A stretch of 64,000 nucleotides of DNA from Pseudomonas sp. (GTDB lineage: Bacteria > Pseudomonadota > Gammaproteobacteria > Pseudomonadales > Pseudomonadaceae): NCBI RefSeq assembly GCF_030698175.1, contig NZ_JAUYNT010000009.1:1-64000 (forward strand). The letters run 5' to 3'. Of the stretch, positions 4,191 to 18,510 are shown piece by piece. Below the pieces are notes generated by a model. It was not told where the DNA came from. It saw only the letters and a list, made by a program, of their open reading frames with translations, and searched no databases. Position numbers and translations under genes: made by a program. Within the stretch, counting starts at the first letter, position 1, and each line of letters starts with the position of its first letter.

Positions 4191-4250
4191 TTAAAAATGC
4201 TCATGTGCTGGTTAAGCATTACGTCGAAGTGCTGTTCAGGGAGAGATCTC

Positions 4251-6677
4251 ATGCCGAGCAAAAAACTTGACCAAGCAACCATTTTGCCGGCCGCCGCAGC
4301 GTCTGAGCCCGTAGTCGATCCGGTCTGCGGCATGGCCGTGCAGGCGGCCACGGCAGCCGCAAGCACGGAGTTTGCCGGCCGCCGCTATTGGTTCTGCTCG
4401 GCCCATTGCCAGGCGGCGTTCTTGGCCGATGCAACCCGTTACGCCAAAGGCGCAGTCGCCGCGCAGCCTTGCCCCGAGCATGGGGCTGCCGCGTCTGGCC
4501 ATGCGCCTGCTTTGGCTGCGCTCAACAGCGCCGCGCCCAGCGGCAAACAACTGGCCAAAGACCCGATCTGCGGGATGCTGGTGGACAAGGCCACGGCGCT
4601 GTCGTGCGAGCGCGGCGGCCGCCACTATTACTTTTGCAGCGACAGTTGCCTGCGCACCTTCGAGTCGCCGGAAACCGAGCTTAAGGCGATGCAAACCCGC
4701 GTGGCCATCGCCCTGACCGGGGTGCTGGCCTTGGCGCTGCTGCGCGCCGGCGCCTTTATCGGGCTGGCCACCGGCGCCATGCTGATGAGTTGGGTGCCGT
4801 TCGACGCGCTGCCATTTTTCACCTGGGGCATGTGGTTGTTCCTGCTGGTGACGCCGGTGCAGTTTATTGGTGGCTGGAGTTTCTATAAGGGCGCCTGGAA
4901 TGCCATCCGCACCCGCACCATCAACATGGATTTTCTGATTGCCCTGGGCACCTCGGTGGCCTACTTCTACAGCGTCGCGGTGCTGTTCTTTCCCGAGGTG
5001 TTGCCGGTCAAGGTGGGGGAGCGCGACGTTTATTTCGAGGTGTCGGCGGTAATCATCGCCTTCGTGCTGTTGGGCAAATACATGGAGGAGATCATCAAGA
5101 AAAAATCCTCGGCGGCGGTACGGCGGCTGCTCGATCTGAAACCGGCGATCGCCCACGTGATCCGCGATGGCGAGGAGGTCGATCTGCCGGCGGAAAGCGT
5201 GATGGTCGGCGAATTATTGCTGGTCAAACCCGGTGAAAAAATCCCCACCGACGGTGACATTATAGAAGGCCAGTCGAACGTCGATGAGTCGATGCTGACC
5301 GGCGAATCCATGCCCGTCGACAAGCGCCCGGGCAGCAGCGTGATTGGCGGCACCCTGAATGGCAGCGGGGTGTTCAGTTTCAAGGCCAGCCGCATCGGTG
5401 CCGACACGGCGCTGGCGCAGATCATCAAGATGGTCGAAGAGGCGCAGGCCAGTACCGCGCAGATTCAGCGCCTGGCCGACCAGGTCACTGCTTATTTTGT
5501 GCCGGCGGTGGTGGCGGTGGCGCTGCTGGCGCTGGTCGGCTGGACGCTGGCGGGGAATTTCCCGCAAGGGCTGATGGCCTTTATTGCGGTGCTGATTATC
5601 TCCTGCCCCTGCGCCCTCGGCGTGGCGACGCCCGCCGCGCTGATGGTCGGGGTCGGCAAGGGGGCCGATAGCGGCATCCTGATTCGCGGTGGCGAAGTGC
5701 TGGAACGGGCGGAAAAACTCAGCACCGTGGTGTTCGATAAGACCGGCACCATTACCCGTGGCGAACCCAGCGTGACCGATGTGCTGCCGTTCGGCGCGGC
5801 GCTGGAGGTCGAAGTCTTGCAGCTGGCGGCCGCCGTCGAGTCCGGCTCCGAACATCCGCTGGGCGAGGCCATAGTGCGCGCCGCCCGCCATCGCGGCATC
5901 AGCCTGCCGCCGGCCAGTGGCATTCAGGGCATTGCCGGCCATGGCATCCAAGGCACGGTCGACAAGCGTCAAGTCTGGCTGGGCAATCGGCGCCTGTTCG
6001 CTCGCCAGGGGATTAGCATTGCGGCTGCCGAGGCGACCCTCAGCGCCCTGGAGGCCGATGGCAAGACCGCCATGTTGGTGGGTGTCGACAACCGTTTGCT
6101 GGGGATAATCGCCGTGGCCGATACGGTCAAGCCAGAGGCTGCCGAAGCCGTGGCGGCGCTCAAGGCCAATGGCATTCAGGTGGTGCTGCTCAGTGGCGAC
6201 AACCAGCGCACCGCCGAGGCGGTCGCGCGGCTGGTGGGCATCCAGCGGGTGATTGCCGAAGTTTTGCCGGACGACAAGGTCGCGGTGATTCGCCAGTTGC
6301 AAAGTGAAGGTCAGGTGGTGGCCATGGTCGGCGATGGGGTCAACGATGCACCGGCCCTGGCCGCCGCCGACATCGGCATCGCCATCGGCTCGGGCTCCGA
6401 TGTGGCCAAGGAAACCGGCAGCATCATCCTGATCAAGAACGATGTGCGCGATGTGGTGGCTTCCATCCAGCTATCGCGGGCAACCATGCGCAAGATCAAA
6501 CAGAACCTGTTCTGGGCCTTTATCTACAACAGCGTTGGTATCCCGATCGCGGCCTTTGGCTTGCTCAATCCGATTCTGGCGGCGGCCGCCATGGCGCTGT
6601 CGTCGCTGTCGGTGATCGTCAATTCCGCGCTATTGAAGCGGGTGCGGCTCGGGGCGAAGGTGAAGGAGGCGCTATAA
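4251..6677 (+). CDS. copA: Cu+-type P1B ATPase with two N-terminal YHS domains
   Basis: An 808-residue heavy-metal ATPase. Two YHS metal-binding domains come first (DPVCGM at residue 23 with a FCSAHC pair; DPICGM at residue 104 with FCSDSC), instead of the usual HMA domains. Then come eight transmembrane helices with the CPC ion site (452-454), TGES actuator loop, DKTGT phosphorylation site (Asp496), SEHPLGEA nucleotide motif and GDGVNDAP (from 694). YN in helix 7 and MxxSS in helix 8 match the Cu+/Ag+ subgroup, so it probably exports Cu+ from the cytoplasm. ATG at 4251 follows GGGAGAG. It stands after the small copper genes and a repeat. Confidence 0.9.
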
Positions 6678-6750: not shown

Positions 6751-7512
6751 TCAGGCGCAATGCTTTGCGGGTAGAGGGTTACTGCTCAAGATCGCTGCCT
6801 GCGCCGGTAGATGCAGCAACTGGATTTCCCGGCCTTGCAGTTCAATCAGCCCTTGTTGGCGATAGCGGCTCAACAGGCGGCTGATGGTTTCTCCGGTTAG
6901 ACCCAGGTAGTTGGCAATTTCACCGCGGCTCATTGGCAGGCTAAAGCGTGTCGCCGAGCGCCCGCATTTGCCGTAACGGGCTGACAGGTCAAGCAGAAAT
7001 GCCGTCAGGCGTTGTTCGGCGTTTTCTCGGGAGTGGTTGAGGTTCTGGTGGCTGTAGTGGATCTGCCGACTCAACAGGTTCAGCAAGCGCTGCCGTATGT
7101 GCGGGAAGCGTCCGGCCAGCTCCTCCAGCTGATGCAGGGGGATGCTGCAGACCGTTGTGGTGTCCAAGGCTTGCGCATAGCCACGGTAGTAATCCGCGCC
7201 AATGGCATCCAGGCCGACCAGCTCGCCGGGCAGGTAGAAATCGCTGATCCGCTCATTGCCCTCCATGTCCAGGTAACAGTGCTTCAACGTGCCGCTAAGC
7301 ACCGTGTAAAGCTGTTGCATGGGATCGACGGGACGAAACAGATACTCGTTTTTGTGCAGCGGTTTGCGCTGTTTGATGATGTGTTCAAATTCTTCAATGT
7401 CGACTCGATCCAGGCCAAGCGGCAGGCAGCAATGCTTGAGCGGGCAGTTATGGCAAGCTATTGGCGCATTTATCTTGGCCGCCGAAGGGCTTATATAACG
7501 GTATGTCGACAT
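6751..7512 (-). CDS. anr: FNR/Anr-type oxygen-sensing regulator
   Basis: A 253-residue CRP/FNR regulator. Cys20, Cys23, Cys29 and Cys122 occupy the positions that bind the oxygen-labile 4Fe-4S cluster in E. coli FNR; an extra Cys28 is present. The C-terminal helix-turn-helix has the recognition helix GETISRLLSRY, with the Glu and Ser-Arg that read TTGAT half-sites. It should activate genes at low oxygen, and four matching boxes lie within 9.7 kb of this window. AAGGAT precedes the ATG. Pseudomonas often has more than one FNR-like protein, so this could be a paralogue of the main Anr rather than Anr itself. Confidence 0.9.
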   Translation of the reverse strand: MSTYRYISPSAAKINAPIACHNCPLKHCCLPLGLDRVDIEEFEHIIKQRKPLHKNEYLFRPVDPMQQLYTVLSGTLKHCYLDMEGNERISDFYLPGELVGLDAIGADYYRGYAQALDTTTVCSIPLHQLEELAGRFPHIRQRLLNLLSRQIHYSHQNLNHSRENAEQRLTAFLLDLSARYGKCGRSATRFSLPMSRGEIANYLGLTGETISRLLSRYRQQGLIELQGREIQLLHLPAQAAILSSNPLPAKHCA

Positions 7513-8027
7513 GGCGAAAATCCTTAATTCTGCGGTTAAGAAAGTCAGCCCCTAACGTCATATAGAAGCTAAATTAACGCTTGTCAGCTCAAGAGGTTGC
7601 CGTGTGTCGGCTCTTAATCTGCTAACGGATCAACGGTCTTTTTTTAGTCCAAAGCGTAATTATGTTTATCGCGTGAGTCATGAGGTGCGGACGTTGCAGC
7701 CTTAAGTTTAGCTGTGAGTCCGTTACGTGTTGAACGCCGCAAACCTCCTACCAAGAGCTACAAGCTTGGCGCCACGGCTAACGGGTACACAGCCTTAAAC
7801 TTTGTGGTTATTTGATAAGGATCAATAAGCCATCTGTTGATCTTTGCGAAGCTCAAAGTACGTGTTGTTAGTTGTGAGCAACAATCGGCAGCCACCTGCC
7901 GTGGAGCGCCACTTTGCAGCACCGATAGCCGCATGTGGCACGCTGGGCGGCTAGCAGACCATGGGCTAAACAGCAGCAGCCGCGGCGCTGCGAACGGCGG
8001 CGAAACTTCATTTTTGGGAGAATGCAC
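7513..8027. other. divergent intergenic region between anr and universal stress gene
   Basis: This 515-base region holds the Anr box at 7812-7825 and, at 7720-7800, fragments resembling the outer arms of repeat family B (CCGTTACGTGTTG and GGCTAACGGGTACACAGCC). No convincing gene or RNA was found. The regulator gene has no FNR box near its own start. Confidence 0.6.
7812..7825 (+). promoter_or_regulatory. FNR/Anr box
   Basis: TTGATAAGGATCAA is a perfect TTGAT-N4-ATCAA site centred at 7818.5. A class II start would lie near 7860, leaving a leader of about 170 bases before the universal stress gene at 8028. Being between divergent genes it could also act on the regulator gene, though at a distance of about 300 bases. 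Confidence 0.8.
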
Positions 8028-8936
8028 ATGGGCCAATATCAACGGCTGCTGCTGATCGCCGACCCGAGCATGCGTCACCATGCGGCGTTGCAACGTGCCA
8101 TGGCGCTGGCCGAGGCGAGTGGGGCGGCGCTGCATATCGCGGTATTTATTGAGCCCCTGGCGGTGTTTGACGATAACTTTCAGGAGCTGCCCCGTGAGGG
8201 GCAGTTAGAAGAGCGGCGCCGCTGGTTGCAAAAAGAGACGGCGGGGTTAAGCGCCAAGGGCATCCCGGTGACCATCGAGGTGGTCTGGAGTAACCAGCCG
8301 CTGGCGGAAACCCTCCTGCATGTGGCGCAGATGCAGCCGGATTTGTTGATCAAGGATGTGCAGCACGAGTCGGCGCTCAAGCGAGTATTTATCACCCCGC
8401 TGGACTGGCACTTGCTGCGCGAGTGTCCGGTGCCGGTGCACCTGGTCAGCGTGGCCGAGCATGTCTTGCCGCGTAAGGTGTTGGCGGCGGTCGACTCGGC
8501 CAGCCCGCAGACGCAGATCCCCGGGCTTAACGATCAGATCATTCAGGCGGCCAATGCCCTGGCCTTGCAATGCGATGCCGAGCTGCACTTGTTAAACACC
8601 TATGACCTGTCGCCGGCGATTTTCTGGGAAGGTGCGGCGGGCGCGGCAGCCTGGTCGGCGGACTATGCCGGGGAGTTGCGCAACTCCTTGCACCTGGCGT
8701 TTGACGCCCTGGCCGATCGCTATGGCGTGCCGCCCGAGCGACGGCATTTCGTCATGGGCTCGGCGATCAATACCATTGCCGAGTTTGCCCTGCAGTCTCA
8801 GGCCGACGTGCTGGTGATGGGCACGGTACAGCGCCATGGCCTGGAAACCTTGCTCGGCAGTACCACCGAATATGTGCTGTACCAGGCGCCCTGCAATATC
8901 CTGGCGGTCAAACCACCGGCGGCTGACGCGCTATAA
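8028..8936 (+). CDS. tandem-domain universal stress protein
   Basis: A 302-residue protein with two UspA folds (about residues 1-150 and 155-300), as in UspE. The second domain has a complete nucleotide-binding signature near the end (VMGTVQRHGLETLLGST, G-x2-G-x9-GS/T type); the first is degenerate. Such proteins support survival under anaerobic or energy stress, and several Pseudomonas usp genes belong to the Anr regulon, consistent with the perfect box upstream. ATG at 8028 is chosen over ATG at 8022 because GGGAGA at 8016-8021 gives normal spacing. Confidence 0.85.
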   Translation: MGQYQRLLLIADPSMRHHAALQRAMALAEASGAALHIAVFIEPLAVFDDNFQELPREGQLEERRRWLQKETAGLSAKGIPVTIEVVWSNQPLAETLLHVAQMQPDLLIKDVQHESALKRVFITPLDWHLLRECPVPVHLVSVAEHVLPRKVLAAVDSASPQTQIPGLNDQIIQAANALALQCDAELHLLNTYDLSPAIFWEGAAGAAAWSADYAGELRNSLHLAFDALADRYGVPPERRHFVMGSAINTIAEFALQSQADVLVMGTVQRHGLETLLGSTTEYVLYQAPCNILAVKPPAADAL

Positions 8937-9010
8937 GCACCGGCCAATAGTTGAAGCGCTCCTACGAAGAGCTGCGCCTCGGCGCAACACATAACGGGGA
9001 TAGCGCCAAA

Positions 9011-9045
9011 CAAAAAGCCCCCGGTCATGCTCGATGGCCGGGGGC
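9011..9045 (-). terminator. intrinsic terminator of the hsp20 gene
   Basis: On the minus strand the stem GCCCCCGG/CCGGGGGC (9038-9045 and 9017-9024) is followed by TTTTTG. It starts 12 bases after the hsp20 stop codon. GC stem plus T tract is typical of factor-independent termination. Confidence 0.85.
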
Positions 9046-9056
9046 ATGGGCAAGGC

Positions 9057-9596
9057 TCAGTTGATTTTTATCGGAATGACTTTTTCCGGTTTGCTGGCCT
9101 CAGGTTTCTTCGGCATTTTGACGGTCAGAATACCCTTGCTGAAGCTTGCCTCAATGCGCTCTGGGTCGATGCCTTTGGGCAGATTGAAGATGCGCTCGAA
9201 GGCGCCATAGTGGCGCTCGGAGAGGTAGTAACCTTGCTTCTTCTCCTCGGTTTTCTCCATTTTCTCGCCGCGAATCAGCATGTTGCCGTCGGACAATTTG
9301 ATCTCGATATTGTTCTCGTCCAGACCGGGCAATTCGGCGGTGAGTTCGAAGAATTTGTCTTTCTCGGCGATATCCACGGCCGGCATGCTGTGGCCCAGTA
9401 GCTCACGCCGCCAAGTGGGCTCGGCATCGAAAGGATTACGCCGAAAAGGCAGGTGCAAGTCGCCGATGTGGAAGTCCTCGAATAGCTGATCGACTTGCCG
9501 GCGCAAGTTCTCCAGCGGCTGGCGTAGATCCATGCGGCTCAGTCCCTTGCCGGCTTTCTCTTCAGGCTCTAGGGGTTTGCGTACGATATTGACCAT
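9057..9596 (-). CDS. Hsp20/alpha-crystallin family small heat-shock protein
   Basis: A 179-residue small chaperone. An N-terminal variable region of about 75 residues (FEDFHIGDLHLPF) is followed by an alpha-crystallin domain with VDIAEKDKFFELTAELPGL, IRGEK and the closing FNLPKGID and GILTVKMPK motifs, then the I-x-I type tail IPIKIN. It holds unfolding proteins in an ATP-independent way. The start at 9596 is preferred to upstream in-frame ATGs because GGAGGAATT precedes it. The shared FNR box at 9667 lies about 77 bases upstream, at a fitting distance, so induction may be low-oxygen rather than heat dependent. Confidence 0.9.
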   Translation of the reverse strand: MVNIVRKPLEPEEKAGKGLSRMDLRQPLENLRRQVDQLFEDFHIGDLHLPFRRNPFDAEPTWRRELLGHSMPAVDIAEKDKFFELTAELPGLDENNIEIKLSDGNMLIRGEKMEKTEEKKQGYYLSERHYGAFERIFNLPKGIDPERIEASFSKGILTVKMPKKPEASKPEKVIPIKIN

Positions 9597-9666
9597 TTTC
9601 AATTCCTCCAATGCTGGTGATCCACAGGGGACAGGGATATTTTTGCGCTGCTGCATGCAGCACATT

Positions 9667-9680
9667 TTGATCTTGATCAA
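9667..9680. promoter_or_regulatory. FNR/Anr box shared by divergent hsp20 and formate dehydrogenase genes
   Basis: TTGATCTTGATCAA is a perfect palindromic Anr site, centred at 9673.5. For the plus strand a -10-like TAACCT lies at 9703-9708, giving a start near 9715. For the minus strand a TATCCC element lies near 9637-9642. One box could therefore activate both genes as a class II site in each direction. Confidence 0.8.
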
Positions 9681-9736
9681 ACAGCCGCCATCGCCCCGCC
9701 ACTAACCTGGGCACAGGCGACGAGGGAGGCGGGGTG

Positions 9737-11833
9737 ATGCGTGTAGTGCCGAGCATTTGCACTTTCTGCGGGGTGGGTTGCGGTATCGGCCTGCGGGTCG
9801 AGGACGGCCGGGTAATAGGCGTCGAGCCGCAACCGGGGCACCCGGTCAGCCAGGGCCAGCTGTGTGCCAAGGGCTGGGCCACCAGCTTTGCCATAGACCC
9901 ACAGAACCGCCTGACCAACCCCTTGATCAAGGAGCACGGGGTGTTTCGCCGCGCCAGTTGGGACGAAGCGTTGGCGCGGGTGGCCAGTGAGTTCAGGTTG
10001 GCCATGGATGAGCTGGGGCCGTCGGGCGTCGGGGTGATCAGCTGCGCCCGGGCCACTAACGAAGATAACTACGCGGCGCAAAAATTCGCTCGTGCGGTGC
10101 TCAAGAGCAACAACATCGACCATTGCGCGCGCATCTGCCACAGTCCCTCGGTGGCCGGCTTGGGGCTAACCCTGGGGTCCGGCGCCATGACCAACAGCAT
10201 TGCCGACATCGATCAGGCCGAGGTGATTCTGGTGATCGGCGCCGATGTCACCGAGAACCACGCCATGCTCGGCGCCCGCATGCTGCGGGCGCAGGCGCGC
10301 GGTGCCTGTTTGATTGTGGTCGACCCGCGCAAAACCCGGCTGGCGCGCCTGGCCGACATCCACCTGCAGGTGCGTCTGGGCACTAATATCGCGCTGCTCA
10401 ATGGCCTGCTGCAGATCATCTTCGCCAACGGTTGGGAGAATCAGCCCTTCCTGGCCGCCCGTTGTGAGGATGTCGGGCCCTTGCTCCGGCATCTGGCGGC
10501 GCTGACGCCGGAGCAGACCAGCGCCATTACCGGGGTGCCAGAGGCCGATCTGCTGGCAGTGGCGCGGCGCTACAGTCAGGCGGGCGCGGCCCTGATCGCC
10601 TATGGCATGGGCATCACCCAATTTCAGAGCGGCACCAATAACGTCATAGCGGTTTCCAATCTGGCGTTGGCCTGCGGTCAGGTTGGGCGGCCGGGCACCG
10701 GCATAGCGCCGCTGCGCGGGCAGAATAATGTCCAGGGCGCGTGCGACATGGGCTGCTTGCCGAATGTCTATCCCGGTTATCAGAGCGCCGCCGATCCCCT
10801 GGTGCAGGCCAAGTTTGCCCAGGCCTGGGGCACTCCGATGCCGGCGCAGCCGGGGCTGACCTCCCTGGGGATGACCCACGCGGCGCAACTGGGTGAGCTG
10901 CGGGCGCTGATGATCATGGGTGAGGAGCCGCTGCTGACCGACCCGGACCAGAATCAGGTGGCCCGCGCCCTGGCCGCGCTGGACTTTTTGGTGGTGGTCG
11001 AGCTAACCCTGACCGAAACCGCCAAGTGTGCCGATGTGGTGTTGCCGGCGGCGGCGTTTGCCGAGAAGGAGGGCACCTTCACCAACTGCGAGCGCCGGGT
11101 GCAACGCATTCGCCAGGCCATAACGCCACCCGGCAAGGCCCGCAGCGACTGGCAGATTCTCGCGGAACTGGCGGCGCGCATGGGCTACTCGGGCATGGGC
11201 TGGGGCGATGCCGAGGCCGTGTTCGCCGAGATGACCTCCTTGACGCCGCTCTTTGCTGCCATGAACTACCCCACGCTGGAGGCTAACCACGGCCTGCAGT
11301 GGCCCTGCGACGCGGCCCATCCCCAGGGCTCGCCGCTGCTGCATGGCGAGCACTTCCCTATAGGTCGCGGGCGTTTGCTGCCGGTGTCCTATGCGCCGCC
11401 GGCCGAATGCCCGGACGCCGAGTATCCGTTCTTCTTCACCACCCAGCGCCTGCACTTTCACTACGGCTGCGGTTCCATGACGCGCAAGTCGCCACTGCTG
11501 GAGCGCGAGACGCCCCGTGGCCTGTTATTTATGCACCCGGACGATGGCGCCGCCCTGCAGTTGCAGGATGCTCAGGGCGTGCGCGTCAGTTCCCGGCGTG
11601 GCTGGCTGGAGACTCGCGTGCAGTTCACCGATGACCTGCCCAGGGGCCTGCTGTCCATGCCCTATCATTTTCGTGAGGCGCCCTGTAATCGGCTGACCAA
11701 CGACGCCCAAGACCCGCGCACCAAAATGCCCGAACTCAAGGCTTGCGCCGTGGCGGTGCAAGCCCTGGCGCCGGGCGTGGCGCCGCAGATTCAGGCCGGC
11801 GCCGCCGAGGTGAACCGCTATGCAAGCCTATAG
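9737..11833 (+). CDS. molybdopterin formate dehydrogenase catalytic subunit (Cys type)
   Basis: A 698-residue molybdopterin oxidoreductase. Cys8, Cys11, Cys15 and Cys43 bind a 4Fe-4S cluster, followed by Lys45. The motif ARICHSPSVAGL places Cys134 where E. coli FdhF has selenocysteine, followed by the catalytic His, so it is a Cys-type formate dehydrogenase. Middle and C-terminal molybdopterin-guanine-dinucleotide domains are present and the length fits FdhF-like enzymes without N-terminal ferredoxin domains. No twin-arginine signal is seen, so it is cytoplasmic. ATG at 9737 has GGGAGG seven bases upstream; GTG at 9734 is possible. It overlaps the next gene by 14 bases and has an Anr box upstream. 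Confidence 0.9.
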   Translation: MRVVPSICTFCGVGCGIGLRVEDGRVIGVEPQPGHPVSQGQLCAKGWATSFAIDPQNRLTNPLIKEHGVFRRASWDEALARVASEFRLAMDELGPSGVGVISCARATNEDNYAAQKFARAVLKSNNIDHCARICHSPSVAGLGLTLGSGAMTNSIADIDQAEVILVIGADVTENHAMLGARMLRAQARGACLIVVDPRKTRLARLADIHLQVRLGTNIALLNGLLQIIFANGWENQPFLAARCEDVGPLLRHLAALTPEQTSAITGVPEADLLAVARRYSQAGAALIAYGMGITQFQSGTNNVIAVSNLALACGQVGRPGTGIAPLRGQNNVQGACDMGCLPNVYPGYQSAADPLVQAKFAQAWGTPMPAQPGLTSLGMTHAAQLGELRALMIMGEEPLLTDPDQNQVARALAALDFLVVVELTLTETAKCADVVLPAAAFAEKEGTFTNCERRVQRIRQAITPPGKARSDWQILAELAARMGYSGMGWGDAEAVFAEMTSLTPLFAAMNYPTLEANHGLQWPCDAAHPQGSPLLHGEHFPIGRGRLLPVSYAPPAECPDAEYPFFFTTQRLHFHYGCGSMTRKSPLLERETPRGLLFMHPDDGAALQLQDAQGVRVSSRRGWLETRVQFTDDLPRGLLSMPYHFREAPCNRLTNDAQDPRTKMPELKACAVAVQALAPGVAPQIQAGAAEVNRYASL

Positions 11834-12854
11834 CCTGGATCGGGTCGAACGCCTGCGCAGCCATCTGGCGCAAGACCGTCAGCTCTACGAGGTGCGCCCG
11901 GATGGCCAGGGCGGTCAGCATTGGCAGCCGGTGGCGGCCAGTGATCTGGGCGAGTTCTTGCCGCTGGCCGAGCCGCCACCGTTTTCGGCCAAGAGCTTCT
12001 TCTTCCCCGAGCGCGAGTTGCTGTTTCGTTTCAGCGGCGGCAATTTTTACTCGGCGCTGCCTGCGGTAACCGCCCAGGTGCTGTTCGGCCTGCATGCCTG
12101 CGACCTGCAGGCGGTGGCCTATCAGGATCAGTTCTTCGCCGCCGACCGACATTATCAAACGCGCCGCCGCGTCACCCTGCTGGTGGGCATCGATTGTCTG
12201 CACAGTTGTTCAGGCGGCTTTTGCAGCACCCTGGGTAGCGGTCCCCAGGTGCACAGTGACAACGCCGATCTGATTCTATTGCCGCGTGCCTCGGCCACGG
12301 CGGACTGGCTGCTGCTGGTCGCCTCCAGCGCCGGCGCGGCGGCCCTGCGTGGGCTGGATTTGCCCCTGGCGCAAGACGACTGGCAGACCGAACGCCATGC
12401 CAACAGCGCCTGCGTGGCGCAAGAACAGGGCGCACAGCGGGAGATAGTCGCGGGCATCGCCAGCCTCAATCAGGGGTTGATCGCCAGTCAAACCTGGGAT
12501 GAGGTCGGGTTGCGCTGCCTGGGCTGCTCGGGCTGCACCTCGGTGTGTCCGACCTGCTCGTGCTTTGCCCCGCTGGACTTGCCCCTGGAGCTGCCGGAGG
12601 AGGCCGGCAGCCAGCGCGAGCGGGTCTGGGACTCCTGCCTGTACCAAGGCTTTCAGCAAGAGGCGAGCGGCCAAAATCCGACGGTTAGCGCTGGGTCACG
12701 GGTGCAGCGCTTCTGGTCGCACAAGTTTGGCGACAGTTTCAAGGCGCAGTTCGGCAGTTACGGCTGCGTCGGTTGTGGTCGCTGCGATCGGGTCTGTCCC
12801 GGTGGCATTGGCGTGCATGGGGTCATGCACAAGGTGGGCACATGCTCGAACTAA
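11820..12854 (+). CDS. 4Fe-4S dicluster electron-transfer subunit (HydB-like)
   Basis: A 344-residue protein with about 200 N-terminal residues of the hydrogenase/sulfhydrogenase beta-subunit type (HACDLQAVAYQDQFF, GIDCLHSC) and two C-terminal ferredoxin-like cluster motifs (CLGCSGCTSVCPTC and CVGCGRCDRVCPGG). Such subunits pass electrons between a catalytic subunit and a flavoprotein in soluble NiFe hydrogenase/sulfur reductases. Here no hydrogenase genes adjoin, and the partner is the formate dehydrogenase whose 3' end it overlaps. The proposal that it wires formate oxidation or CO2 reduction to the downstream flavoprotein is inference. Confidence 0.85.
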   Translation: MQAYSLDRVERLRSHLAQDRQLYEVRPDGQGGQHWQPVAASDLGEFLPLAEPPPFSAKSFFFPERELLFRFSGGNFYSALPAVTAQVLFGLHACDLQAVAYQDQFFAADRHYQTRRRVTLLVGIDCLHSCSGGFCSTLGSGPQVHSDNADLILLPRASATADWLLLVASSAGAAALRGLDLPLAQDDWQTERHANSACVAQEQGAQREIVAGIASLNQGLIASQTWDEVGLRCLGCSGCTSVCPTCSCFAPLDLPLELPEEAGSQRERVWDSCLYQGFQQEASGQNPTVSAGSRVQRFWSHKFGDSFKAQFGSYGCVGCGRCDRVCPGGIGVHGVMHKVGTCSN

Positions 12855-13669
12855 CCCCGAGAAAACTGCGCCTGCTCGATTACTACGACGATGGTGAAGA
12901 TGCCCGCCACTTCAGCTTCGCCATTGAGTCGCCGTGGGTCAGCGATCTACAAACCATTGCCGGACAATTCTTTATGCTGGCGCTGCCAGGTTTTGGTGAG
13001 GCGCCTTTTACCTATGTCAGCCAGCCGGATGCACAGGGCCGCTTTAACGCCTTGATCCGCCGCACCGGGGCGCTCAGCAACGCCTTGTTCGAGCTGCCAG
13101 CGGGCGCCGTCTTGGGTTATCGCGGGCCTTTCGGCAAAGGCTGGCCGCTGTTTTTCAGCACCCATCAGGTCTTGGTGGTGGCCGGCGGTTGCGGCCTAGC
13201 GCCCTTGGCGGGGCTCTTGGATGAAGCCGCCGAGCACCACCTGCCCGTGCACTTGCGGGTGATCTATGGGGCCCGGCGCCAGGCCACCCAGGTGCTGGGC
13301 CGCGAGCGTGAGCGCTGGAAGCAGACGATGAGCTTTAGCGAAACCTTCGACCAGGCCGGCGCCGGCCAGCAGCAAGGCTCGCCCTTGGTGCACCTGGAGC
13401 AGCTGTTTGCCAAGCAAATGCCTGACGCCGTGCTCTGCTGCGGCCCGCAAGCCTTGATGCAGGCCACCGCCGACAGCTGTTTAAACCTGGGCATCCCGGC
13501 CAATAAAATCTGGTTATCCATGGAGCGGCGCATGCATTGCGGCGTCGGCCTGTGCGGGCATTGCTACATAGGCGCAAGTTACGCCTGTGTGGATGGCCCG
13601 GTGTACCGCTATGACCAGCTCCAGGCGGTGCAGGCAGGCTGCTTGACCTTACCGCAAGGGCAAGGTTGA
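12842..13669 (+). CDS. FAD/NAD(P)-binding electron-transfer subunit (HydG-like)
   Basis: A 275-residue ferredoxin-reductase-fold protein. A flavin domain (about residues 1-100, with FTYVSQPDAQG and RRTGALSNALF) is followed by the NAD(P) domain starting at VVAGGCGLAPL and by a C-terminal 2Fe-2S site with Cys residues in MHCGVGLCGHC and YACVDG. This is the gamma-subunit pattern of soluble hydrogenase/sulfhydrogenases and dihydroorotate dehydrogenase PyrK relatives. It overlaps the preceding gene by 13 bases and completes a three-subunit unit that probably links formate to NAD(P)H. AAGGTGG precedes the ATG. Confidence 0.85.
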   Translation: MLELTPRKLRLLDYYDDGEDARHFSFAIESPWVSDLQTIAGQFFMLALPGFGEAPFTYVSQPDAQGRFNALIRRTGALSNALFELPAGAVLGYRGPFGKGWPLFFSTHQVLVVAGGCGLAPLAGLLDEAAEHHLPVHLRVIYGARRQATQVLGRERERWKQTMSFSETFDQAGAGQQQGSPLVHLEQLFAKQMPDAVLCCGPQALMQATADSCLNLGIPANKIWLSMERRMHCGVGLCGHCYIGASYACVDGPVYRYDQLQAVQAGCLTLPQGQG

Positions 13670-14056: not shown

Positions 14057-14506
14057 ATGTTTAGTCCGCTGCGTATTGCCACCCTCGCCGGCGTACTGCT
14101 GAGCGGGGCGGCCCAGGCTGCCGAGCCGCTGAGCATCGACGTGCATCGTGACGCCAATTGCGGCTGCTGCAAGGACTGGATCAAACACCTGCAAGCCAAT
14201 GGCTTCAAGGTCAACGACAAGGTCGAAACCAATATGAGTGCAGTCAAACAAAGCCTTGGCGTTCCGCCGGGCCTAGCCTCCTGTCATACCGGGGTGATCG
14301 ACGGCAAATTCGTCGAAGGCCACGTGCCCGCCGCGCAGATTGTTGAATTAACCAAGCGCGCAGATCTGGTTGGTATGGCAGTCCCAGGGATGCCCGCCGG
14401 CTCGCCAGGCATGGATTACGGCCAGCCCCACCAGGCTTATCAAGTAATAGGCCTGAGCAAGGCGGGCAGTGAAGAGGTGGTGGCCGAATATGCCGCTGAT
14501 AAGTAG
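14057..14506 (+). CDS. exported DUF411 metal-binding protein
   Basis: A 149-residue DUF411 protein with a signal peptide (cleavage near AQAA, residue 21), the Cys motif ANCGCCKDW, a later conserved Cys-His (ASCHTG) and a Met-rich segment (VPGMPAGSPGMDYG). DUF411 proteins occur in copper and other metal resistance loci and are periplasmic. TAGGAG precedes the chosen ATG. Together with the CopZ-like gene 72 bases upstream it extends the copper set begun at 1755. Confidence 0.85.
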   Translation: MFSPLRIATLAGVLLSGAAQAAEPLSIDVHRDANCGCCKDWIKHLQANGFKVNDKVETNMSAVKQSLGVPPGLASCHTGVIDGKFVEGHVPAAQIVELTKRADLVGMAVPGMPAGSPGMDYGQPHQAYQVIGLSKAGSEEVVAEYAADK

Positions 14507-14530: not shown

Positions 14531-14935
14531 TTAACCGCCTAGATAAGCGTCGCGCACCTTGGGGTCGACCAGCAGTTCGGCGCCGCTGCCTTGCATGACG
14601 AACCGGCCGTTTTCCAACACGTAGGCGCGGTCGGCGAGTTTCAGTGCCTGGTTGGCGTTTTGCTCGACCAGAAACACCGTCACGCCATCGCTGCGCAGTT
14701 GTTCGATGATGGCAAAAATCTGCTGGATGATGATCGGTGCCAGGCCCAGGCCCAGTTCGTCGAGCAGCAGAAGATTGGGTTTGCTCATCAACGCGCGGCC
14801 GATGGCGAGCATCTGTTGTTCGCCGCCAGACATGGTGCCAGCGCGTTGGCCGAAGCGCTCCTTGAGGCGCGGGAACAGATGCAAGACCTTGTCCATCTGC
14901 TCTTGGTAGTCGGCGTTCTCAGTGAAAAAAACCAT
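14531..14935 (-). pseudogene. truncated second copy of braG (livF) 3' end
   Basis: This 134-residue reading frame matches residues about 103-233 of the intact BraG at 17809-18510 almost throughout, from FFTE to the final YLGG. The N-terminal third with Walker A is missing, and the Walker B region reads LLLLDELGLGL instead of LLLLDEPSLGL. DNA similarity is high over about 14520-14930 and extends a few bases past the stop, then ends sharply. Both copies have the same orientation, so they form a direct repeat of about 0.4 kb. Without a P-loop it cannot hydrolyse ATP. Confidence 0.9.
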
Positions 14936-17808: not shown

Positions 17809-18510
17809 TTAACCGCCTAAATAGGCATCGCGCACTTTAGGGTCGACCAGCAGTTCGGCGCCGCTGCCTTGCATGACGATCCGGCCGTTTTCCAACACGT
17901 AGGCGCGATCCGCCAGTTTCAGTGCCTGGTTGGCGTTTTGCTCAACCAGAAACACCGTCACGCCATCGCTGCGCAGTTGTTCGATGATGGCAAAAATCTG
18001 CTGGATGATGATCGGTGCCAGGCCCAGGCTCGGTTCGTCGAGCAGCAGCAGATTGGGTTTGCTCATCAACGCGCGGCCGATGGCGAGCATCTGTTGTTCG
18101 CCGCCAGACATGGTGCCAGCGCGTTGGGCGAAGCGCTCCTTGAGGCGCGGGAACAGGTGCAAGACCTTGTCCATCTGCTCTTGGTAGTCGTCTTTCTCGG
18201 TGAAGAAACCGCCCATGGCTAGGTTTTCTTCCACCGTCAGACGGGCAAATACCCGCCGGCCTTCGGGCACCACGGCGATGCTTTTGCGCATGATTTCGGG
18301 CGTGTCGAGGCCGATCAGCTCTTCGCCTTCGTAGCGAATGCTGCCGCTGGTGGCCTGTGGCGAGCCGCAGAGGGTCATCAGCAAGGTCGATTTGCCGGCG
18401 CCGTTGGCGCCGATCAGGGTGACGATTTCGCCTTGTTTAACTTCGATGCTGACGTCGTGCAGGGCCTGGATCTTGCCGTAGAAGGTGGAGACATTATTGA
18501 AGTACAACAT
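17809..18510 (-). CDS. braG: branched-chain amino-acid ABC transporter ATP-binding protein BraG (LivF)
   Basis: A 233-residue ABC ATPase: Walker A GANGAGKST (from residue 34), signature MSGGEQQ, Walker B LLLLDEPSLGL, and the H-loop region replaced by VEQN as is typical for LivF. It energises uptake of leucine, isoleucine, valine and related amino acids with BraF at the membrane. It is the last gene of the braD-E-F-G run and starts two bases after the braF stop. Its 3' end is duplicated at 14531-14935. Confidence 0.95.
   Translation of the reverse strand: MLYFNNVSTFYGKIQALHDVSIEVKQGEIVTLIGANGAGKSTLLMTLCGSPQATSGSIRYEGEELIGLDTPEIMRKSIAVVPEGRRVFARLTVEENLAMGGFFTEKDDYQEQMDKVLHLFPRLKERFAQRAGTMSGGEQQMLAIGRALMSKPNLLLLDEPSLGLAPIIIQQIFAIIEQLRSDGVTVFLVEQNANQALKLADRAYVLENGRIVMQGSGAELLVDPKVRDAYLGG

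Follow-up and report, generated by a model that had tools for sequence, protein, structure and literature searches.

What enzyme is encoded where a gene for the catalytic subunit of a formate dehydrogenase (FDH) overlaps two genes of hydrogenase-subunit type, and in which direction would such an enzyme run? The question is raised by the fdhA, beta and gamma genes in a stretch of 64,000 nucleotides (nt) of Pseudomonas sp. (assembly GCF_030698175.1, contig NZ_JAUYNT010000009.1, positions 1 to 64,000), referred to here as the window. We consider it likely, judging from the sequence, that this triplet encodes a soluble FDH that is linked to NAD(P) and built on an electron module of hydrogenase type, and the core of the claim appears well supported by sequence and context. 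A first-pass annotation of the same DNA had proposed a cysteine-type FDH on a HydB/HydG-type pair, an interpretation that is supported by the locus and its relatives. The three overlapping genes and the upstream Anr box that it described were found as follows:

9737..11833, + strand: fdhA, FDH catalytic subunit, 698 amino acids (aa); TIGR01591, PF00384, PF01568 and PF04879; best Protein Data Bank (PDB) match FdhF of the hydrogen-dependent CO2 reductase (HDCR)
11820..12854, + strand: beta subunit, 344 aa, HydB/AsrA-like Fe-S protein; Fer4_22
12842..13669, + strand: gamma subunit, 275 aa, HydG/AsrB/PyrK-like [2Fe-2S] protein binding flavin adenine dinucleotide (FAD) and NAD(P); PF00970, PF00175 and PF10418; match to the gamma chain of Pyrococcus furiosus soluble hydrogenase I (SHI); placed by tree
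9667..9680, no strand assigned: exact Anr/FNR box, TTGATCTTGATCAA, its first base 70 nt 5' of the fdhA start codon

As open reading frames (ORFs), fdhA and beta overlap by 14 nt and beta and gamma by 13 nt. FdhA scored 743.9 bits against TIGR01591, the NCBIfam model of the FDH alpha subunit, exceeding the curated cut-off of 666.25, and its closest sequence relative in the PDB was HDCR FdhF (7qv7, 663 bits), which we take to be from T. kivui. It carries one N-terminal [4Fe-4S] motif (Cys8, 11, 15 and 43), and the cysteine that the first-pass annotation had assigned to the selenocysteine position is correctly Cys134 in numbering from the ATG, with Lys45, His135 and Arg327 also in place; these four residues and the four cluster ligands are identical in all 24 aligned loci. 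FdhA is, we infer, a molybdopterin enzyme of the Mo/W-bis(molybdopterin guanine dinucleotide) (bisMGD) type. The genome holds seven molybdopterin-oxidoreductase genes, and among the five scanned with NCBIfam (L003 and L007 were left out) only the window FdhA passed TIGR01591. One paralogue (L006) is FdhF/YdeP-like and adjoins fdhD, the gene that had been suggested for a search elsewhere in the genome and that is indeed present, on another contig.

Among the NCBIfam models, ranked by E-value, beta matched AsrA best and gamma AsrB, and their best PDB sequence matches were the beta and gamma chains of SHI (9nez). Both subunits are homologous to, and share the fold of, HydB/HydG-type subunits, yet form a separate clade. 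The three gamma domains, which are the FAD, NAD and [2Fe-2S] domains of the dihydroorotate dehydrogenase B/HydG kind, exceed their cut-offs, so that an NAD(P)-binding flavoprotein subunit, as in NAD(P)-dependent FDHs, is encoded within the operon; the [2Fe-2S] ligands are Cys233, 238, 241 and 249. Fifteen cysteines of beta are identical in all 24 triplet rows, and fourteen of these also in ten comparison rows, which are related beta/gamma pairs labelled '3b'; the label is loose and just eight of the ten are truly 3b, because L059 and L062 have no match nearby to the NiFe-hydrogenase large subunit (PF00374). The fifteenth is shifted, the triplets reading C-x3-C-x4-C and the comparison rows having a spacing that ends in CFC. 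An extra cluster in beta, built from the FDH-type Cys130, was rejected: since the comparison rows also have three cysteines there, in another spacing, Cys130 is a moved and not an added ligand. The predicted model of beta matched archaeal FDH beta-type chains in fold, a feature that goes beyond the first-pass annotation, as do the acs-pdhABC and focA neighbours described below.

The triplet is not confined to the window. A beta scan with one genome per species gave 17 loci, of which 16 carry the name Pseudomonas and the remaining one, L011, that of Pseudomonadales; the order fdhA-beta-gamma was present in 16 of 16 Pseudomonas loci, and the contig of L011 begins inside beta. A match in L011 to an 'hma' query, translated one base out of frame, shows similarity at the DNA level only. 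Strong beta matches were rare, being found in 5 of 199 genomes of the genus sample (E<=1e-60, own genome included, the other four being loci already among the 17), in 2 of 398 of the phylum sample (E<=1e-75, own included) and in 5 of 247 from the order of G810 (E<=1e-75, G810 included). Beyond Pseudomonas, all seven loci picked by beta (L050, L064/L086, L067, L082, L083, L084 and L085) carried the triplet, with 59-74% identity in FdhA and 41-62% in beta, the gamma gene of L050 being interrupted by the contig end. Beta protein matches from other phyla, among the best 120 of 535 listed, include Polarisedimenticolaceae. The proposed joining of a cysteine-type FDH to a HydB/HydG-type pair without hydrogenase is seen in the window and in 23 other loci.

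The three gene products, we infer, form a complex. Formate would be oxidised at the Mo/W-bisMGD site with Cys134, His135 and Arg327, and electrons would pass from the [4Fe-4S] cluster of FdhA through the [4Fe-4S] clusters of beta to the [2Fe-2S] cluster of gamma, to FAD and to NAD(P)+. Because the beta model has the archaeal FDH beta-type fold, beta probably docks on FdhA as FdhB does, and would thereby replace the alpha/delta pair of the hydrogenase. The reaction is predicted to be reversible. As for the cofactor, Arg145 of gamma (YGAR motif) aligns with the 'TAR' of SHI gamma, whose complex was solved with NADPH according to the PDB entry title. The position is arginine in 23 of 24 triplet rows, the frame of the remaining row (L020) ending earlier. 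A similarly placed arginine serves the 2'-phosphate in E. coli flavodoxin reductase. From this one conserved arginine, NADP(H) would be slightly favoured over NAD(H).

A number of observations weigh against the proposed enzyme or parts of it. No biochemistry of the fdhA-beta-gamma triplet was found. Beta and gamma stay under the listed curated NCBIfam cut-offs (AsrA/ShyB/HydB and AsrB/HydG), beta scoring 116.9 bits with AsrA (cut-off 323.15) and 102.3 with HydB (750), and gamma 145.8 with AsrB (288.6) and 110.7 with HydG (650); the HydB-type and HydG-type identities given at first pass hold as matches to those families and fall short at the level of these cut-offs. Arg145 does not settle the cofactor, because its position is lysine in half of the comparison rows (five Arg, five Lys), as it is in AsrB, and because arginine is also found there in reductases that accept NADH. 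Two beta homologues (P0089 and P0092) have lost the equivalents of Cys233, 236 and 326, so that an Fe-S-poor variant of beta may exist; P0089 carries the source name Pseudomonas resinovorans. The gamma frame of L020 (P. flexibilis, 9008-9787) has an in-frame stop at codon 137, its alpha and beta frames being open. In G951 a hydrogenase set ends 4.4 kb from the triplet; its ORF translations, read without a model search, suggest a HoxFUYH-like enzyme with diaphorase genes of its own, and on that reading it was rejected as the partner of the triplet. Six of the 16 complete Pseudomonas loci lack an exact Anr box near fdhA. Finally, neither of two focA queries matched the window, no genome-wide FocA search being made, and no source of formate was identified.

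The box TTGATcttgATCAA in front of the window's triplet (-70 relative to fdhA) is one of three exact Anr boxes in the window, where 0.05 would be expected and 0 of 100 shuffles reached three. Ten of the 16 complete Pseudomonas relatives have an exact box between -69 and -75; L019 and L022 have a box with one mismatch and L024 one with two, and none was found near fdhA in L018, L020 and L023. In G810 (L064), a member of another family, the box is exact and lies about 70 nt 5' of fdhA, and none was found at the corresponding place in L067, L083, L084, L085 and L050. Portions of a report on P. aeruginosa survival tie together universal stress protein (Usp), Anr and pyruvate fermentation (PMC5705914). 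Expression of the triplet is predicted to rise at low oxygen via Anr.

The conserved neighbours bear on the direction of the reaction. Genes for acetate-CoA ligase and for pyruvate dehydrogenase (PDH) E1-alpha, E1-beta and E2 (acs-pdhABC) lie directly 3' of gamma in eight of the 16 complete Pseudomonas loci (L009, L010, L012-L015, L017 and L021), and the same four adjoin the triplet in four of the seven others (G810, L067 of Photobacterium sp. DA100, G1061 and G1033; as loci, L064/L086, L067, L083 and L084). P. benzenivorans and P. borbori are among the species with both the triplet and acs-pdhABC. The triplet contig of G504 ends before this region, and an E1-alpha over the cut-off lies on another of its contigs. 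In L009 the E1-alpha (444.4 bits, cut-off 393.9), E1-beta (388.2, 321) and ligase (877.4, 729) exceed their cut-offs, and the E2 passes none of those listed. A focA-like gene adjoins the triplet in four of the seven non-Pseudomonas loci; the L067 protein is over the formate/nitrite-transporter subfamily cut-off by 0.6 bits, that of L064 is under it, and those of L083 and L084 are tblastn matches only (58-87% identity). Phosphoenolpyruvate (PEP) synthase (ppsA) is encoded close to the triplet in L067, L083 and L084. None of the ten comparison loci, some of them short (5-9 kb), matched pdhA, pdhB or pdhC, one matched the ligase (L055, 33%) and three ppsA. Of 11 triplet genomes, G951, G1033 and G1061 have genes similar to that of pyruvate formate-lyase (PFL), and the other eight lack them. 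Within the stretches covered, acs-pdhABC was seen neither in the window nor in the other eight Pseudomonas loci, and none of the fdhA-adjacent acs-pdhABC, focA and ppsA neighbours of relatives was matched on the window's contig. In the window's genome no E1-alpha exceeds the cut-off, as against six of six other genomes tested, and the E1-alpha/E1-beta/E2 set that it does have is more distant (31-39% identity).

Two explanations of this context share the same enzyme and differ in its direction; for the window's own organism we lean towards formate oxidation as the everyday direction, CO2 reduction being the bolder case. The one that survives best, to which we would give a little less than an even chance, is that the cell imports formate and oxidises it to gain NAD(P)H, and converts acetate and pyruvate to acetyl-CoA, feeding micro-oxic respiration and gluconeogenesis. 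Acetate-CoA ligase, PDH, PEP synthase and a FocA-like channel would then all work in their usual directions, and the three PFL-bearing triplet genomes could make formate themselves. Since PFL is missing from the other eight, however, formate must there come from elsewhere, and the low-oxygen control suggested by the box would suit a fermentative role equally well.

Such a role is the second explanation, which we regard as possible and, on the whole, unlikely: a CO2 reductase in a hypoxic pyruvate outlet, or 'split pyruvate formate-lyase'. A dedicated PDH would make acetyl-CoA, CO2 and NADH from pyruvate, the FDH complex would reduce the CO2 to formate with NAD(P)H, FocA would export it, and the acetate-CoA ligase run in reverse would give acetate and ATP. 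The sum of PDH and CO2 reduction is the PFL reaction, exergonic overall, whereas CO2 reduction driven by NAD(P)H is by itself uphill; AMP-forming ligases usually activate acetate, which counts against this outlet. The linkage of acs-pdhABC to the triplet in both groups of loci, its near absence from the comparison loci, the L009 scores and the adjoining focA-like genes speak for it, and the absence of PFL from eight of 11 carriers, together with the low-oxygen box, favours the backward, CO2-reducing direction. PEP synthase beside the cluster in three loci suits assimilation instead, and with the usual direction of the ligase and the presence of PFL in three carriers, two of which (G1033 and G1061) have the full cluster, it favours the forward one; the eight Pseudomonas loci and the window in which acs-pdhABC was not seen, and the distant E1-alpha set of the window's genome, also argue against the outlet. 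It is a tentative and rather doubtful proposal that in the fuller cluster a PDH induced at low oxygen and the CO2 reductase, with the reversed ligase and a FocA channel, would jointly convert pyruvate to acetate, formate and ATP and need no glycyl-radical enzyme, the window having the CO2-reductase half. ATP formation by an AMP-forming acetyl-CoA synthetase, described in Syntrophus (PMC4992975), also speaks for the outlet. For P. aeruginosa, the products described for pyruvate fermentation are lactate, acetate and succinate, formate not being named in that passage (PMC3759415).

Far less probable is that beta and gamma serve a hydrogenase or a sulfite reductase and are merely located beside fdhA. 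They do resemble group 3b hydrogenase and Asr subunits. In the class sample 95 of 369 genomes had a beta match at E<=1e-30, two of them strong (<1e-150, own and G504) and the remaining 93 starting at 2e-59; among the 34 best of these distant genomes, PF00374 lay within 5 kb of the best beta match in 29 (coordinates compared by hand). It was not near in G430, G314, G483, G528 and G482, although a second beta of G314 has it near. Against this explanation, PF00374 found no match in the whole 4.55 Mb genome (42 contigs, 99.8% complete), the same model being positive in five of 14 control genomes; no asrC search was made. The genes overlap, their order is identical in 23 other loci, and in trees set against the ten comparison rows and one AsrA/AsrB the FDH-type beta and gamma each formed a clade (100/99 and 100/100) apart from the comparison rows, long branches being flagged that include AsrA, L059 and L069. 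The expectation that relatives, too, would lack a hydrogenase large subunit beside the pair fails for the distant homologues; eight of the 11 FDH-type genomes have no PF00374 match, G504 and G964 each have a single match of 67 residues, above the Pfam cut-off (35.5 and 26.5 bits), on a separate contig, and G951 has the set discussed above. Membership in group 3b was rejected on the absence of PF00374 and on scores below the HydB/HydG cut-offs, and membership in AsrABC on scores below those of AsrA/AsrB. The HydB/HydG-type pair of L059 (G430) adjoins FrhB/FdhB-like and flavin (FAD)/Fe-S-type genes and that of L062 (G483) surA/lptD/pdxA-like genes; these neighbours are possible further partners of the module.

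Least credible of all is a nitrate-reductase or FdhF/YdeP-type identity for FdhA in place of that of an FDH, since the NasC, NasA and FdhF/YdeP subfamily models that also match it score far under their cut-offs (457.7/1100, 319.4/1000 and 250.5/582) whereas TIGR01591 passed, and its active site reads Cys-His whereas two nitrate-reductase-like paralogues of the same genome (L002 and L004) read Cys-Met; nitrate reductase was rejected on the site and the scores.

The proposed NAD(P)-linked FDH is like several known systems and differs from each. HDCR passes electrons through HycB-type proteins to hydrogenase; the triplet encodes a HydB/HydG pair instead. FdsABGD and the Rhodobacter FDH are NAD-linked and cytosolic, with a NuoEF-like diaphorase. 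The Rhodobacter alpha chain (6tg9) is longer than FdhA, at 958 aa. In SHI, a group 3b NiFe-hydrogenase (9nez, 9nf0), the alpha/delta pair forms the head that FdhA forms in the triplet, whose genome lacks PF00374, whose beta and gamma score far below HydB/HydG and whose clade is apart from gammaproteobacterial hydrogenase-type rows; unlike in AsrABC, the nearest NCBIfam relatives, the catalytic gene overlapping beta is fdhA. Compared with archaeal FdhAB-type FDHs (F420-dependent, 9t1s; Fdh-Hdr, 7bkb), the triplet adds an FAD/NAD(P) gamma, and beta resembles chain M of 9t1s in sequence at the Fe-S motifs only, with no indication of F420 use. Fdh3 of Thermococcus onnurineus, an archaeal W enzyme, is a soluble cysteine-type NAD(P)-reducing FDH with a formate transporter in its operon, and reduces CO2 too; its NAD(P) subunit, with a GXGXXG motif, was modelled on NfnI, and it has two small Fe-S proteins (PMC8965080). 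The triplet is also predicted to be soluble, cysteine-type and NAD(P)-linked, and has one HydB-type and one HydG-type gene in place of an Nfn-like subunit and two small Fe-S proteins. Some Thermococci, according to another report, have an NAD(P)-FDH operon and a sulfhydrogenase operon in back-to-back arrangement (PMC10025317). Among the papers listed by searches of PMC, whose long lists were cut short, none was seen to describe, judged by title and the start of the abstract, an FDH with HydB/HydG-type subunits in Pseudomonas, which is not proof of absence from print. HydBC of a complex called 'FdhA-HydBC' is presumably of the FeFe type. That name appears in PMC7382037, and 300,000 of the 334,378 characters of PMC13397495 contained neither 'HydB' nor 'sulfhydrogenase'.

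Close relatives of the window's genome are Pseudomonas species. The genes on the 5' side of the triplet are the following:

9057..9680, - strand: Hsp20 small heat-shock protein (PF00011), divergent from fdhA
7935..8936, + strand: universal stress protein with two Usp stretches (PF00582); exact Anr box upstream at 7812-7825
6751..7512, - strand: FNR/Anr-family regulator with an N-terminal CxxCxxxxC motif visible in the translation; matched by PRK11161 (Fnr) at 224.9 bits, slightly under the cut-off of 228
4197-6677: P-type ATPase containing two YHS stretches, close to the FNR-family regulator

The TTG start of the Hsp20 ORF overlaps the Anr box of fdhA, and the real start probably lies downstream of the box; an Hsp20 homologue is found 5' of fdhA in 11 of the 16 complete Pseudomonas loci. 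Usp, Hsp20, the FNR-family regulator and the P-type ATPase around the triplet would make up a low-oxygen survival cluster. P-type ATPases of another cluster occur near the triplet in L008, L010, L016, L050 and L067, with weak matches in L083 and L084. Directly 3' of gamma, from 13718 to about 13950, is a small protein whose GMSCGSC motif is of the heavy-metal type, followed at 14057-14506 by a predicted secreted protein with a CGCC motif and no NCBIfam match. Further on, a 300-nt stretch of livF is present twice (14531-14830 and 17809-18108, 96% identity). The copy at 14531 belongs to an ORF of 134 aa whose match to LivF is confined to the C-terminal part of that protein. Between the two copies lie an alcohol dehydrogenase-like ORF and ORFs that, judged by eye, are MarR-like and glutathione S-transferase-like, an arrangement that would fit the insertion or duplication of a segment.

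If the proposed FDH is real, one conserved NAD(P)H module would serve FdhA as well as hydrogenase and sulfite reductase; FdhA would be its third catalytic head, and the module would then be interchangeable. For reducing CO2 and for recycling NAD(P)H, a soluble cysteine-type FDH of three subunits from mesophilic, oxygen-exposed bacteria would have practical interest. The linkage of acs-pdhABC and focA to the triplet offers a concrete proposal for how pseudomonads lacking PFL may handle pyruvate at low oxygen, and a split pyruvate formate-lyase, if true, would give such oxygen-exposed bacteria a mixed-acid outlet.

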